Source: Bacteroidota bacterium (lineage in GTDB: Bacteria > Bacteroidota > Bacteroidia > JABEUT01). From it: 34,938 nucleotides of DNA. The DNA lies in contig JABDCA010000029.1 in NCBI GenBank assembly GCA_013288345.1, forward strand, positions 1 through 34,938, read 5' to 3'. The position numbers and the translations under genes were made by a program. The notes beneath the pieces are model-generated. The model was not told the origin of the DNA. It saw only the letters and a list, made by a program, of their open reading frames with translations, and searched no databases. Shown in pieces: positions 25,594 to 32,138 of this stretch (within the stretch, counting starts at the first letter, position 1; each line of letters begins with the position of its first letter).

Positions 25594-25677
25594 CAAAAGG
25601 GGTAGGTCACGAAATTAATAAAATATTTATTATCCTTATCTCAGCCTTAACCTAAATCTAAACATAACTCCTTGATA

Positions 25678-25709
25678 TTTGCGTATTTAACAGATACATG
25701 CTATATTTG
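25678..25709 (+). promoter_or_regulatory. Complete -33/-7 promoter for the PorP/SprF-family gene
   Basis: TTTG at 25678-25681 and TATATTTG at 25702-25709 are separated by 20 bases, exactly the Bacteroidota TTTG-N19-21-TAnnTTTG layout. It lies 22 bases before ATG 25732, and overlaps the longer ORF that begins at 25672, so that longer N-terminus is unlikely. Confidence 0.7.
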
Positions 25710-25731
25710 TTTTTTGTTACCTACCATTTAT

Positions 25732-26790
25732 ATGCGCAAGCTAATCAGGTTTAGTTTATTTGTTTTGTGTATATCGGGCACTTCTGCTTTCGCGCAAGAT
25801 GTTCATTTTTCACAGTTTTACGAATCTCCGCTTACCTTAAACCCTGCATTGTGCGGTGTATATAATGGCCAAATTTTTGCCGAAGTGAATTACCGTAGCC
25901 AATGGGCAAGTGTAATGGGCGGAGGTGACGGTTTTAATACTATGGCCGCTACAGTGGAGCTACATAATATTATGAAAAAATGGACCAAGGGATATATTTC
26001 TCCCGGGCTTTCATTTTATAATGATAAATCGGGCGATGCCAGTATTGGTATTACTGAAATTAACCTTACTGTAGCAAGTGGTATACTTTTAGGAGAGAAG
26101 AGCTCGCTTGCAGGAGGTATTCAGGCTGGCTGGTCGCAGCACAGTATTAATTTATCGGGTTTAAGCTGGGATAACCAGTATATAAACGGAAATTATGATG
26201 CCAATGCCTCAACGGGTGAAACATCTATGGGGAATAGTTTTTCTTATGCCGATTTTTCTGCCGGCTTATCATATAGTTATGGAGTTGGCCAAACCAATAT
26301 GACATCGAACGATCAGTTTAAAGCCAACGTAGGTGCAGCCATATTTCATGTAAACGAACCTAATATGTCGTATTATAACCAGACTGGCCCAGGCACAAAG
26401 CTGTATATGCGTTATGTAGCACATGGCTATGCTGAATACGGACTTCCTAATTCGAATATTGCATTGGTGCCCGGCTTTGTTTATTACCAACAAGGCCCTG
26501 CCAGCGAGGTTGATTTGGGTTTGAAGATTCGTTATATACTTAAGCAAGAAAGTAAGTACACCGGTATTAATAAAGGTACAGCAATTGATATTGGGGGTTA
26601 TTACCGCGTTGCTGATGCAGCAATAATACTCACCCAAATAGAATTTGCCAACTATGCATTAGGCTTTAGTTACGATTTTAATACTTCAGCACTCACCACT
26701 GCTTCATCTGGCCGTGGCGGTTTCGAACTCTCACTGAGATTTATTAACCCGAACCCTTTTATGAGTTCGGGAACTAATTCTATGTTTTAA
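25732..26790 (+). CDS. PorP/SprF family type IX secretion/gliding outer membrane protein
   Basis: 352 residues from the promoter-supported ATG 25732. Signal peptide (RLIRFSLF-like, ending SAFAQ) followed by DVHFSQFYESPLTLNPALCGVYNG, the family hallmark. The remainder alternates short amphipathic strands and Gly-rich turns as in a 14-strand outer membrane barrel, ending FELSLRFINP. Members bind T9SS components or anchor surface adhesins. It is 36 bases upstream of a PorE-like gene and is probably co-transcribed with it. Confidence 0.88.
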   Translation: MRKLIRFSLFVLCISGTSAFAQDVHFSQFYESPLTLNPALCGVYNGQIFAEVNYRSQWASVMGGGDGFNTMAATVELHNIMKKWTKGYISPGLSFYNDKSGDASIGITEINLTVASGILLGEKSSLAGGIQAGWSQHSINLSGLSWDNQYINGNYDANASTGETSMGNSFSYADFSAGLSYSYGVGQTNMTSNDQFKANVGAAIFHVNEPNMSYYNQTGPGTKLYMRYVAHGYAEYGLPNSNIALVPGFVYYQQGPASEVDLGLKIRYILKQESKYTGINKGTAIDIGGYYRVADAAIILTQIEFANYALGFSYDFNTSALTTASSGRGGFELSLRFINPNPFMSSGTNSMF

Positions 26791-26826
26791 TTTATAAAAT
26801 CAATCCCCGGTACATTTCATAAAATT

Positions 26827-28821
26827 ATGAGAGCACTCTCAAAACTGTTTATCTGCTTATTTATTCCGGGATATGTAACTGCACAAGTACACAACGTTAA
26901 GTTTAAAAAGGGGAACTTTAAAGATAACCCTGTAGGGTTTAAGCATGCTGTGCAAAAATTAGCAGAGGGTAACCAACATATTCAGAATGGGGAATATGGT
27001 GCAGCTTTATTGGCATACCTGAGTGCCGATTCGTTAAATCCTAACAATGCCGACCTGAATGCTAAAATAGGTGTGTGTTATTTGAATACAGTAAGTAAAA
27101 CCAGGTGTCTTCCTTACTTCAGGCTTGCCCACGAAATAAAAAAGAAAATATCGAAACGGATAGATTATTTTTTAGGAAGAGGTTACCAATTGAGTTGCCA
27201 ATGGGATAGCGCCATTGCTGAATACCAGCTAGCACTTAAAAAATCACCGGCTGATAAAGACGATATTAATAAACTTATAAATGAATGTAATAACGGAAAC
27301 GATTTAATGCAACGCCCCGTTAAAACAACAATGGAAAACATGGGCACTAATATAAACAGTACTTATTCTGACTATCGCCCGTTAATTACTGGCGACGGTA
27401 AAGAGATGGTTTTTACTTCGTGCAGGCATAGTAATTTAAGTACCGATTTTCATCCTGTAACAGGAGAATATACGTCGGATATGTTTTTAACGCACAACAA
27501 AAATGGTGTTTGGGATACTGCTGAAGGTATTGACCCACCCGTAAATACTATTGATAATGACGAAAGCGTTTATCTTACTCCCGATGGTAAAACACTTTAC
27601 TTGATGCGCGAAAACCGTAGTGGTGACATATACAAAAGCAGTTATTCTGAGGTCAGGGGTTGGTCGCTACCGGTGGCTTTGAGCGATACTATTAATTCTA
27701 TTTATACTGAATCATCCATGTGTCTTTCGCCCGATGGAAAGACCATGTATTTTGTGAGCAACAGGTCAGGTGGAATAGGAGGGAAGGATATTTATACATC
27801 AAGCCTGAAAGATGACAGCACCTGGGGTACACCTGTAAATATGGGCAGTGTAATCAATACTTCCTATGACGAGGATGGTGTATTTATGAACCCTGATGGT
27901 AAAACACTTTACTTTAGTTCGAAAGGGCATAACACCATGGGTGGCTACGATATTTTTATGACTACCAAAGACAGTGGTAAATGGTCGGAGCCTAAAAACC
28001 TTGGGTATCCTATTAACACACCTGATGATGATGTATATTTCAGTACATCTGATGATGGATATTACGGGTACTATGCAAGAGCGACAGATCAGAATAAGCT
28101 CGACATATTCCGTGTATCAATGGCTGCTTTTATGCCAAGAGAATGGATATATAAGGGAACTATAACAGATTCTGTTTCGCATGAAAAACTGAAAGTGGCG
28201 CTTGAATTCTTTGATAAGGCACAAGGCAATAATTCACCCTTTGGCCCCGATACTGTAAGCGGCGATTATTCATTAACACTGCCTGCAAAACATACATACG
28301 CCATACGCATACGTGCCAAAGGTTACAAAGATTATAGTATAGACATTACAGTGCCTGATACAGCTATGTACCGCAATGCAATACAAAATATTGTGTTAAC
28401 CAAGCTTGCAGGTTCAGGCGGGTTACTTGCTTCGGGCCTACCGGCTATGAATGATTCCTGTGCACCTAAAATGGCTGTGCTAATGGAGCGTTTTAAAGGC
28501 GTGGTAAAAGATACTGGAGTGATGAAAAGCGCAATTGCGCACATGGATGCATCCTTCTGTTTAAAGAGTATGAAGTTTACCATACAGGTCGGGCTATTCC
28601 ATTCTGCCCAAAAGTTTACCAAGCAATATGGCAAAAAAGCTTTAATGGAAAAGCTACCTGATGGTACCACTCGTGTTACTTCTGGTTTATTCCCTACTTA
28701 CGAAGAGGCTCACAAGTCGCTTGAACAGCTTAAGAAGAAAGGTGTGAAAGATGCGTTTATAACTGGTATATATAATGGTAAAAGATATATACTAAAGGAT
28801 CTGTTGCATCCTGCGAATTAG
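26827..28821 (+). CDS. PorE-like envelope protein: TPR, WD40-like propeller, carboxypeptidase-like domain, SPOR-like C-terminus
   Basis: 664 residues. Signal peptide, TPR region (residues ~40-150), a PD40/WD40-like propeller with repeated DGKxLYF motifs (~175-435; TPDGKTLYLMREN, SPDGKTMYFVSNRSGG, NPDGKTLYFSSKG), and a carboxypeptidase-regulatory-type domain (~440-525). This order matches PorE-like proteins of T9SS. Instead of an OmpA peptidoglycan-binding end, the last ~80 residues (FTIQVGLFHSAQKF ... TTRVTSGLFPTYEEA) look like a SPOR domain, which also binds glycan strands. It abuts a PorP/SprF gene. Its stop overlaps the convergent M1 gene by four bases. Confidence 0.8.
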   Translation: MRALSKLFICLFIPGYVTAQVHNVKFKKGNFKDNPVGFKHAVQKLAEGNQHIQNGEYGAALLAYLSADSLNPNNADLNAKIGVCYLNTVSKTRCLPYFRLAHEIKKKISKRIDYFLGRGYQLSCQWDSAIAEYQLALKKSPADKDDINKLINECNNGNDLMQRPVKTTMENMGTNINSTYSDYRPLITGDGKEMVFTSCRHSNLSTDFHPVTGEYTSDMFLTHNKNGVWDTAEGIDPPVNTIDNDESVYLTPDGKTLYLMRENRSGDIYKSSYSEVRGWSLPVALSDTINSIYTESSMCLSPDGKTMYFVSNRSGGIGGKDIYTSSLKDDSTWGTPVNMGSVINTSYDEDGVFMNPDGKTLYFSSKGHNTMGGYDIFMTTKDSGKWSEPKNLGYPINTPDDDVYFSTSDDGYYGYYARATDQNKLDIFRVSMAAFMPREWIYKGTITDSVSHEKLKVALEFFDKAQGNNSPFGPDTVSGDYSLTLPAKHTYAIRIRAKGYKDYSIDITVPDTAMYRNAIQNIVLTKLAGSGGLLASGLPAMNDSCAPKMAVLMERFKGVVKDTGVMKSAIAHMDASFCLKSMKFTIQVGLFHSAQKFTKQYGKKALMEKLPDGTTRVTSGLFPTYEEAHKSLEQLKKKGVKDAFITGIYNGKRYILKDLLHPAN

Positions 28822-31800
28822 AACGCCCTGCCAATTCCAATTACCCATCTCATCTGAACATAGTTTTGTTCCATTGCCGGAACCTGGTTCAGGAAAAATG
28901 GCATATCGAAACGAATAGTTAGTGGCTTTGCTAATTGCAACGCGCCCCATTTCTGTATAGTTAAAGCCATTCCAATTCCTGCATCGCAATGTATATTGCT
29001 GAATATAATGTTTTGAGGCGTGGTTCCAGTAAACGGAAATGTAACCGGAGTGGCACTGATTACGCCTGCATCGCCAAACAAATAAGTACTGAGCGCTAAA
29101 GCATTTTTCAAAAACTTTGGGTTGAAATGAACCAAGTGGTTGAAATCAAGTTCAGCATTTATAGAGGCTCCGGTAGAACCGGCATAAGCAAAGTTATAGC
29201 GGCTATTGATATTCCTGGAATCGAATGGAGGGAATAGGTAGCCTGCATAACCTCTTAGGTCGAGCCCACCGCCTTGTTGAAAGTGGTTTACATCGGAGCC
29301 ATAACCAACCCATTGCGCAGGTACTATGCCCTGTGCACGTGTAAAGGCATTATCCATTAACTGTTCGGGGTTAGCGCCTGCTGCATATAGTTCAGATTCG
29401 TATGGAATATTTCCTGTACCATATTGCCCGAATATGCGTGTATGGAGTGTAAGTTTATGTCCAAGTTGCTGCGTGTTTATTACTGTAAGTGTCGTTTGTG
29501 AGTAGTTATAATTCTGGGTGAATGCAGCGCTCCTCAGGTTGAAATCAATGTTCCCTCTGCCTGATGCAGAGTACTTATAATCGTGCTTTATACCAATTTT
29601 TATGATGTTGTTGTATTTGTAGGGCAGCCATAATTCAGGATAGAGTAGGTAATTGGTATCCCACACATGCGGACGGTACATTATCTGCGCCTCTGCGTAA
29701 ATGGTGTACTTATTCGAATTGTCTTTTAACTGAAAGCGCAGTTTACCTTCATCAAGCCCATCCATACTTTGGGCATAAAAGTTTACAGATGAATTGTGAA
29801 TGAATTTCTCTGTGGCAGTCTGGTAGCTTATGGTACCAGAAATCAATTGATGGCCATAACTACCCAGGTTGTTTTGGAATATTGCTGTATTGAACAATAG
29901 GTTAGCGCTCAGGTTGTGCAAAAAGAGCATATAATCGCCATGCATATGTATGCCTAATTGTACACCATCAACACCATTATACCAAAGTGATGGGCCAAAG
30001 AAGGCTTCGTAATTGGTCCAATCGGGACTGTTATATACCTTCGAATCGAAGTAATACTTAATCGGGAATGGCTTAGTGTTATTAAGCATATTCACATCTC
30101 CCAGTCGGTTGGTTGTATCTATTTGTACTTTGTCAATGCCACCGGGAATTATAACTGTAGCATCATAATAGGGTTGTACTTTTCCCCAGCCGATCCAACG
30201 AGGCAATTTTGTAGCCGATGTTTTCTTTTCGAACCATCCGTTAGGGATGTAGAAATTATAGACACTGTCTTTTTTTGATGTTACGGCAAAATCAATTGGC
30301 ATTTGCATTTCGCCTTTGCGTAAAAATCTTATTATATATTGGTCCTTCTCTTTTCCTTTCTTTACTGATTGTATTCCATAATCAAGACTTTTAGGGGTGT
30401 TAAGCCATTCATCAAAAAACCAGGTAAGGTCAGCATGTGTATATTCGGTAATGGCATTTCTGAAATCGTTCAGGTAAGGGTGGCAGAATTTCCACTCGGC
30501 AAAATAATGCTGCATAGCCCCAAAGAACAGCGAATCGCCCAATACATATTGCAGGTTGTAAAGCATGGTGGCTCCTTTGTAATAAACCTGTGAATACCCT
30601 CCATCATGGCCAAGCATGCTATGGAAGTCATCGCTTTGGGTGTTGAGTGTTACATCTTTTGTTCCGTAGCTATTGCTGGTGCGGGTAGCCATTTGCTTAC
30701 CAATAATGTTTTCAGTAAAGTCGCTTTCGCCCCATATATAGTTATATAAATAACCGCTGTATGCCCAGTCCTGCCGGAACAGATCTTGCTTGTAGTACTT
30801 ACGTATGTAATTTGAAATAGGCACACCCTGTACCTCGTATGGCCCATTCAATTGATTGTATGTCCAGCATTCTGCAAATTCGGTAAAACCTTCATCGAGC
30901 ACTGCACGGTAGGTTTCATTGCTGCCAAGCATACCAAAGAACCAATTGTGGCTAACCTCATGTGTAAGTGTACCCAGGTAATCGGGGTAGCCACCACCAT
31001 CAAGTGTTATCATAGGGTATTCCATACCATCGCGTGCATCGGCTACAATCATTTGCGGATAGCCATACATGCCAAAGAATTTCGAATTACATGCAATTAC
31101 GCCTGCTGTATAGCCTGCAGCATCCTGCCAGCGGTGTGCATGCATTTCCTCAGCAAACGAATAGCATTTTATTCCATGCCATGTTGCAAGGCCTATCCTA
31201 TAAGTTGGGTCGGCAGTAAGTGCAAAGTCATGCACATTCTCGGCATGATACAACCATGTTTTAGGTGTATTGGTTCGCACTACAACTACAGTAGGTGAGG
31301 CGCTTTCGTTGGTCTTATTTTTAAAGTTCCGGATATCTAACCTACTCATAAGGTTATCAGGCAGCACTTCACTTTCATTCAATAATGTACCAGTTGCACC
31401 ACATATATAGTTATTGGGTAGGGTAAAGGCTATATCATATGTCCCGAAGTCGCCATAAAATTCATGTGCAAGGTGCTGTTCCACATCCCAGCCGAATTTT
31501 TTATCGTACACGCACATACGCGGGTACCAGTGCACTACATCGTATTGTTTGTAAACAGTGTCTTTGTTTTTACTAGCCCATGCAATAAACATTTTCATAC
31601 GGTTACGCACAGTGCCGCCATTATCGAAATAGGTTTTAAATTTCAAGCGGAAAGTCATGGAATGCCCCGGTAGTAATGGCTTGGTGAGCCATACTTTCAT
31701 TACGGTATTATCTATTTCTGTTTTCAGGGTTGAGTTTTCTGCACTGATTTCGGTTACCTGGCAGCCCAGGTCATGGCTTTCGTATTTGCCGAATTTCAGT

Positions 31801-32138
31801 TTGTAGCCACTGTTTTCGTATGCAGAGGTATAATAGGAGTGTTTGTTTTGTGCGTTGGAGTAGAGGTGAAAGAATACATAATTCAACGTGTCAGGAGAGT
31901 TGTTCCAGTATAAAAGTGTTTCGGTTCCATCAATTATATCAGTTGAGTCGTTTAAAGATGCTGTAATAATGTAATGCACATCTTGCTGCCAGTATCCTTT
32001 ATAGGGTGGGCGGTTTTGCCAGTAATACTGATTGCTTACGCTGCGGTAGTTATCGGCAGGGAAGCTATAATCCTGTGCAAGCCCATTATAACATAGGCTT
32101 GACAATATAAAAAGTATAAAGAGTACTCGCTTTTTCAT
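28818..32138 (-). CDS. M1-family metallopeptidase with a C-terminal Omp85-like barrel
   Basis: 1106 residues with a signal peptide. The M1 zinc site is H393-E-V-S-H397 with E416 exactly 18 residues further (DEGFTEF). Upstream, GMEYP at 371-375 replaces the GxMEN exopeptidase motif. The final ~400 residues are not typical M1: they alternate amphipathic strands, contain L961-R-G-Y964, and end RWVIGIGRAF. The LRGY resembles the (V/L)RG(F/Y) loop-6 motif of Omp85 proteins, and its distance of 143 residues to the C-terminal Phe matches that family. No POTRA domain is evident. Predicted to be anchored in the outer membrane. Confidence 0.8.
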   Translation of the reverse strand: MKKRVLFILFILSSLCYNGLAQDYSFPADNYRSVSNQYYWQNRPPYKGYWQQDVHYIITASLNDSTDIIDGTETLLYWNNSPDTLNYVFFHLYSNAQNKHSYYTSAYENSGYKLKFGKYESHDLGCQVTEISAENSTLKTEIDNTVMKVWLTKPLLPGHSMTFRLKFKTYFDNGGTVRNRMKMFIAWASKNKDTVYKQYDVVHWYPRMCVYDKKFGWDVEQHLAHEFYGDFGTYDIAFTLPNNYICGATGTLLNESEVLPDNLMSRLDIRNFKNKTNESASPTVVVVRTNTPKTWLYHAENVHDFALTADPTYRIGLATWHGIKCYSFAEEMHAHRWQDAAGYTAGVIACNSKFFGMYGYPQMIVADARDGMEYPMITLDGGGYPDYLGTLTHEVSHNWFFGMLGSNETYRAVLDEGFTEFAECWTYNQLNGPYEVQGVPISNYIRKYYKQDLFRQDWAYSGYLYNYIWGESDFTENIIGKQMATRTSNSYGTKDVTLNTQSDDFHSMLGHDGGYSQVYYKGATMLYNLQYVLGDSLFFGAMQHYFAEWKFCHPYLNDFRNAITEYTHADLTWFFDEWLNTPKSLDYGIQSVKKGKEKDQYIIRFLRKGEMQMPIDFAVTSKKDSVYNFYIPNGWFEKKTSATKLPRWIGWGKVQPYYDATVIIPGGIDKVQIDTTNRLGDVNMLNNTKPFPIKYYFDSKVYNSPDWTNYEAFFGPSLWYNGVDGVQLGIHMHGDYMLFLHNLSANLLFNTAIFQNNLGSYGHQLISGTISYQTATEKFIHNSSVNFYAQSMDGLDEGKLRFQLKDNSNKYTIYAEAQIMYRPHVWDTNYLLYPELWLPYKYNNIIKIGIKHDYKYSASGRGNIDFNLRSAAFTQNYNYSQTTLTVINTQQLGHKLTLHTRIFGQYGTGNIPYESELYAAGANPEQLMDNAFTRAQGIVPAQWVGYGSDVNHFQQGGGLDLRGYAGYLFPPFDSRNINSRYNFAYAGSTGASINAELDFNHLVHFNPKFLKNALALSTYLFGDAGVISATPVTFPFTGTTPQNIIFSNIHCDAGIGMALTIQKWGALQLAKPLTIRFDMPFFLNQVPAMEQNYVQMRWVIGIGRAF

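Follow-up and report, generated by a model that had tools for sequence, protein, structure and literature searches.

Fusions that place an enzyme ahead of an Omp85 barrel make up a short list in the literature examined, namely, the patatin-like fusions such as PlpD and the "metallo" fusions. PlpD carries a patatin-like phospholipase and a POTRA domain, and its enzyme domain, once thought to be shown on the cell surface, was found in the periplasm (PMC11116518, as excerpted); the case of PlpD shows that the enzyme domain affects the way in which such a barrel has to be interpreted. Here, we describe a gene in a 34,938-nucleotide stretch of DNA from a Bacteroidota bacterium (GenBank assembly GCA_013288345.1, contig JABDCA010000029.1; this whole stretch is called the window), which encodes an M1 peptidase fused to a predicted Omp85-type barrel. 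As far as the excerpted descriptions go, the patatin-Omp85 fusions and the M1 fusion share an N-terminal enzyme and a C-terminal 16-strand Omp85 barrel on one chain; however, the M1 fusion has a zinc peptidase in place of the phospholipase and no POTRA domain.

The Omp85 "Metallo" subfamily also has a hydrolase-like domain preceding the barrel, which the excerpted text of Heinz and Lithgow (2014, PMC4104836) terms a metalloprotease and which corresponds to PF00149. The domain of the M1 fusion is instead PF01433, peptidase M1. Neither PF00149, which we take to be a metallophosphatase family, nor a patatin domain gave a Pfam match in the fusion open reading frame (ORF). No description of an M1-Omp85 fusion was found among the open papers listed by the searches, as judged from titles and the openings of abstracts, with subscription papers, preprints, and supplements lying outside the scope of that search; the ten Omp85 subfamilies in the excerpted text of PMC4104836 include none, and the word "peptidase" appears nowhere in the main text of PMC12611786, on the Bacteroidota BAM. 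The statement in the initial annotation that such a fusion is no established class agrees with these searches. Among enzyme-Omp85 fusions, this one is a widespread variant with no description found in the literature searched, and it adds a peptidase-bearing, POTRA-less branch to the superfamily. It is mostly single copy and its barrel has matches in 65 of 120 sampled genera of the class, yet the M1 half is all that Pfam and NCBIfam recognize.

We favor, with moderate confidence, the reading that the protein is an outer-membrane-anchored, periplasm-facing M1 aminopeptidase carried on a divergent Omp85-type barrel that also has its own role. The chain would be exported; its C-terminal third would fold into a 16-strand barrel of divergent Omp85 type within the outer membrane, and its N-terminal two thirds would form a zinc-dependent M1 peptidase, probably an aminopeptidase, beneath the barrel on the periplasmic side. 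Its likeliest job would be to trim peptides or faulty outer membrane clients where the outer membrane faces the periplasm, and the barrel, judged from its survival after peptidase loss, would be more than an anchor.

An M1 peptidase and a predicted barrel in one ORF

Both halves lie in a single uninterrupted ORF (Table 1), as first annotated together with the M1 zinc site H393-E-V-S-H397 and E416. The HExxH-x18-E spacing of that site is met by H393, E394, H397, and E416, and Pfam Peptidase_M1 (PF01433) matches residues 391 to 578 at 48.8 bits (cutoff, 27.7). The NCBIfam model pepN_strep_liv gave a partial match of 38.5 bits, far under its cutoff of 591.2. When the full-length model was compared with the PDB using Foldseek, the best 50 matches listed were all M1 aminopeptidases, with a best E value of 4.5e-22. 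The M1 region is divided in the AF2 model into an N-terminal beta domain, a catalytic domain, and a beta domain at residues 587 to 673. No lipobox is visible by eye in the hydrophobic signal that precedes it. The M1 and Omp85-type barrel architecture of the predicted protein is well supported by structure prediction and sequence comparison.

Conservation was followed in a survey of 117 loci, made up of 30 from a whole-protein search and one, 6, and 80 from further locus sets. The loci were picked from whole-protein and barrel-profile matches, and many matches cut at contig ends were omitted. The zinc site was assessable in 112 loci, after exclusion of L020 (in-frame stop), L231 and L232 (contig ends), L303 (region cut), and L310 (short piece), and the H, E, H, and E residues are kept in 108 of these. 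At the place of the GxMEN exopeptidase motif stands GMEYP, which keeps Met-Glu and has Tyr in place of Asn. The same motif occurs across the clade, including 17/17 members of a set of M1 paralogues described below. The altered motif pointed out initially is therefore real, but the special, nonstandard specificity proposed from it was rejected because the motif is common to the whole clade. In M1 enzymes, the Glu of GxMEN binds the N terminus of the substrate; since this Glu and the zinc site are retained, the M1 half is likely to be an aminopeptidase. Soluble M1 aminopeptidases (PepN, ERAP1, IRAP, LTA4H, and ColAP) have the same zinc site and fold, whereas they have GxMEN and no membrane barrel and the fusion has GMEYP, a barrel, and scores far below the PepN equivalog cutoffs.

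Table 1. Features of the fusion gene and protein, with positions in the window
Feature	Position	Strand	Basis
Whole ORF, M1 peptidase and Omp85-type barrel, 1106 residues	28818..32138	−	Uninterrupted frame
Putative signal peptide, residues 1-22, MKKRVLFILFILSS...GLAQ (MKKRVLF...GLAQ)	32073..32138	−	Type and cleavage site judged by eye; predicted helix 2-17
M1 peptidase region, residues ~23-673	30120..32072	−	Pfam PF01433; predicted strands and helices; Foldseek
GMEYP, residues 371-375, at place of GxMEN exopeptidase motif	31014..31028	−	Sequence; survey conservation
Zinc site H393-E394-x2-H397 ... E416	30891..30962	−	Sequence; survey conservation
Predicted 16-strand barrel, residues 710-1106	28821..30011	−	AF2 models; Foldseek; hhalign
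LRGY, residues 961-964, loop 6 between strands 11 and 12	29247..29258	−	AF2 models; survey
E996, strand 12	29151..29153	−	AF2 model; survey
FGDAG, residues 1021-1025, strand 13, includes D1023	29064..29078	−	AF2 model; survey
C terminus RWVIGIGRAF, residues 1097-1106; last strand 1099-1103 and terminal Phe	28821..28850	−	AF2 model; survey

Omp85 relationship and orientation of the barrel

The AF2 model of the whole protein, made with 64 rows (pLDDT, 84.1; pTM, 0.82), has 16 strands spanning residues 710 to 1103, and a model of the barrel alone (pLDDT, 86.1; pTM, 0.84) again has 16. In both models, a loop of ~79 residues that holds LRGY joins strand 11 (896 to 910) to strand 12 (990 to 998). 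Foldseek comparison of the barrel with the PDB gave 139 matches at an E value of ≤0.001, and the best 50 of the 139 were all BamA or TamA (best E value, 9.9e-11). The Omp85-like barrel with a loop 6 motif that had been proposed from the letters of the ORF is supported, RGY being in the loop 6 position.

According to the excerpted texts, Omp85 loop 6 runs between strands 11 and 12 (PMC4890855), and the characteristic residue set comprises the loop 6 Arg, the Asp of (F/G)xDxG on strand 13, and the Glu of strand 12, the Glu being given for CdiB (PMC7644211). Their equivalents in the fusion are R962 in loop 6, D1023 on strand 13 (1014 to 1029), and E996 on strand 12; LRGY has Leu in place of the Val or Ile of the (V/I)RG(F/Y) motif. 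Both R962 and D1023 are found in 115/117 survey rows, the other two rows being gapped at each position, and E996 is found in 114/117 (one gapped, one Gln, and one Ala). The initial annotation had also drawn attention to LRGY near an aromatic C terminus, and this arrangement is likewise conserved: the final residue, F1106, lies 142 residues past Y964 and is Phe in 114/117 rows. Among the 75 ORFs of the pattern-based search described below that are long enough to judge, 72 have [LIVM][RN]G[YF] at 130 to 155 residues from the end, the exceptions being L084, L088, and L115.

Profile comparisons point in the same direction. Against a pooled Omp85 profile of 49 proteins, which was adopted after comparisons with single groups had proved weak, hhalign gave a probability of 85 and a score of 51.8, and scores of 43 to 61 were obtained when one Omp85 group was omitted at a time. 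The controls scored lower: none of 30 column shuffles exceeded 16.7, the reversed profile gave 16.4, and a PorP family of 8 proteins gave 20.6. In an alignment with a merged profile (probability, 75), LRGY, the strand 12 Glu, and the strand 13 motif were aligned in register.

Several results weigh against an Omp85 assignment. None of the Omp85 models in Pfam or NCBIfam recognizes the barrel, and the C-terminal 423 residues match no Pfam family. The model Bac_surface_Ag (PF01103), with which the initial annotation had proposed to check the barrel, matched 0 of 64 barrels at an E value of ≤1, and an hmmsearch of PDB sequences with the barrel profile gave no match up to an E value of 10. The hhalign probabilities against single Omp85 groups of the class were low (BamA, 0.5; TamL-like, 38; small, 2.5; mid-size, 0.7), and true Omp85 groups scored 85 to 134 against the remaining groups, above the 51.8 of the fusion barrel. 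In the fold comparison, the best 50 of the 139 matches had query TM scores of 0.38 to 0.50 with large root mean square deviations (7.4 to 15.5 Å), and the ten-residue block containing LRGY had a mean pLDDT of 68 in the full model, as opposed to 89 in the barrel model. A POTRA domain is also missing: Pfam gave no match, and residues 587 to 709 contain no beta-alpha-alpha-beta-beta unit in the AF2 model, which has strands at 587 to 673 followed by a linker with one short helix of 4 residues and one short strand.

A barrel of some other origin, with RGY and DxG arising by convergence or chance, would account for the missing PF01103 and PDB sequence matches and for the weak match to BamA alone. 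We regard this as very improbable, given that the best 50 of the 139 fold matches are BamA or TamA, that the pooled profile match exceeds its controls, and that one orthologue (G036) matches PF01103 at 23.1 bits, just below the cutoff of 24. Because the pooled score exceeds the controls yet trails the true groups, the barrel is, on these sequence comparisons, a divergent but real Omp85 relative, and the assignment stands despite the absent PF01103 match since both fold and profile comparisons support it. Whether it is named a member depends on the definition: it is one under that of PMC4104836, in whose excerpted text the barrel defines the superfamily and POTRA-less architectures are listed, and it is not under that of PMC11116518, whose excerpted text names the POTRA domain as characteristic. 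A regular expression for the order RGY-E-DxG matched 108/117 fusion rows, 17/20 BamA proteins, 8/11 stand-alone barrels, 0/17 paralogues, 0/29 other Omp85 proteins, 10/11700 shuffles, and 0/480 background ORFs; it was given no weight because it was written after the family had been inspected and its BamA matches may use another DxG site.

The initial annotation had left the peptidase facing either the surface or the periplasm. The N termini of Omp85 proteins are periplasmic, and an even-stranded Omp85 barrel has both of its ends in the periplasm. Because of this topology, the linker of ~36 residues that runs from the end of the M1 strands (673) to the start of the barrel (strand 1, 710), and the precedent of PlpD, the M1 domain should lie on the periplasmic side. 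Export of the M1 domain to the cell surface through its own barrel, the route first proposed for PlpD under the name type Vd secretion, would fit the order of the parts, which is the same as in PlpD (enzyme, then barrel), and the presence of translocators in the superfamily. However, the PlpD enzyme domain is located in the periplasm (PMC11116518, as excerpted), the stretch from 673 to 710 offers only ~36 residues, which include a short helix and a short strand, and there is no POTRA domain, so that surface display appears unlikely.

Distribution and probable secondary loss of the peptidase

The whole-protein search of 60 related genomes, the source genome included, gave a match in 57, and 36/60 had one match covering at least 1000 query residues, which indicates that the fusion ORF is not a chance product. 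The remaining matches were fragments, split matches, or other M1 proteins. Two orthologues (L020 and L310, in genomes G058 and G208) carry in-frame stops or a broken frame, which could be decay or sequencing error. A more specific, barrel-only profile (A2) was built from the window and 63 of 80 loci of a pattern-based search, 17 being excluded as near-copies, fragments, or loci with no long ORF. It matched 123/198 sampled genomes of the class, distributed over the 65 genera mentioned above, with exactly one match in 116/123 matching genomes. The best matches lay in ORFs of 1050 to 1150 residues in 98/123 genomes, and several of the shorter ones lay where a contig ends. When the phylum was sampled evenly, A2 matched 29/148 genomes, comprising that of the window, 22 with stand-alone barrels of 403 to 472 residues that fall outside the class, and 6 more; 9 genomes had partial A2 matches in ORFs of 994 to 1071 residues. 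The 80 named contigs of the pattern-based search are titled as metagenome genomes, except for that of the isolate Taibaiella soli (L104), and nearly all are titled Bacteroidota. That search relied on DGMEYPM and WFFDQW-like patterns and so cannot give the frequency of active-site loss. One contig (L099) is filed under an Azovibrio restrictus metagenome genome and carries the fusion at 44% identity, which is probably a binning error.

The H, E, H, and E set is missing from four assessable loci. L149 has a full-length M1-like part with no HExxH anywhere and no Pfam match, and its barrel motifs are intact. In L228 and L229, open frames of 445 and 444 residues join a signal-like start directly to the barrel; L228 follows a BrkB/YihY-family gene and a NadC-family gene identified by Pfam, and L229 follows the same two as judged by eye. 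In L230 (614 residues), ~50 to 60 residues match the end of the M1 region, and the first ~180 have no counterpart in the fusions. A quick tree was rooted at its midpoint and given SH-aLRT support values, and its label test left out the intact rows. There, L228 and L229 formed a group (support, 99) with three intact fusions from the same family, and L230 lay on a long branch with a fork support of 89 alongside intact fusions both from its own family and from others. One side of a branch supported at 100 consisted of the stand-alone barrels from other classes. Our reading is that the peptidase was lost secondarily, on at least two occasions, the barrel and its loop 6 residues being kept, with long branches that blur the exact placement.

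The survival of the barrel after the peptidase in some lineages suggests a role for it beyond anchoring. A barrel whose only function is to hold a periplasmic peptidase in place would be consistent with the retention of fusion and zinc site in 108/112 assessable loci. We nevertheless consider a plain anchor unlikely, in view of the three loci whose barrel stands without an M1 catalytic domain (in two, it has its own signal peptide and lies behind a BrkB/YihY-like gene) and of the lost zinc site in L149; the loop 6 residues are kept in the M1-lost loci and in L149 alike. The M1 losses fit a barrel with a merely structural role equally well, and in this respect they speak against our favored reading of a peptidase-bearing barrel with its own role. 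A stronger version of that reading, which we hold possible but doubtful, is that the protein is an active outer membrane insertion or translocation machine of Bacteroidia with its own processing or quality-control peptidase; the stand-alone barrel would then be older, and M1 would have been gained in Bacteroidia and lost at least twice while the machine was kept. Loci in which the M1 domain is lost or dead form a natural experiment on whether the barrel can function by itself.

Related barrels and gene neighborhood

The stand-alone barrels found elsewhere in the phylum, in classes other than that of the window (11 proteins, L193 to L202; 403 to 465 residues), belong to the same barrel family as the fusion (hhalign probability, 100) but are without the M1 part. 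A separate M1 gene beside them was considered and rejected, as no M1 match was found in the 10 fetched regions. In L193, the stand-alone barrel adjoins acetate kinase, with a caspase-domain protein and phosphotransacetylase further on.

The set of M1 paralogues comprises 17 loci (L145 to L162 except L149) with open frames of 980 to 1065 residues, all of which have HExxH. They extend ~400 more residues past the M1 part, 3/17 end in Phe, and none has the RGY-E-DxG order. Their C termini gave an hhalign probability of 86.5 to the stand-alone barrels and of only 14 to the family of the window, and the paralogues may, on these sequence comparisons, represent a second line of M1-barrel proteins that lacks the RGY motif.

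Gene neighborhood was also considered as a clue to function and led nowhere, as no neighbor family is general among the 75 loci with neighbors. A PKD-like surface protein was the most common (17 loci), followed by flippase-like membrane, RlmH-like, NadC-like, and BrkB/YihY-like proteins at 15 loci each; the families were named by eye, except that NadC-like and BrkB/YihY-like were named by Pfam on L228, and the frequent families are not immediate neighbors in the window. There, the fusion gene is convergent with a plus-strand gene at 26827 to 28821, with an overlap of 4 bases. The region from 25672 to 28821 encodes a PorP/SprF-family protein and then a TPR-PD40-SPOR protein (Pfam), a type IX secretion-like pair convergent with the fusion gene.

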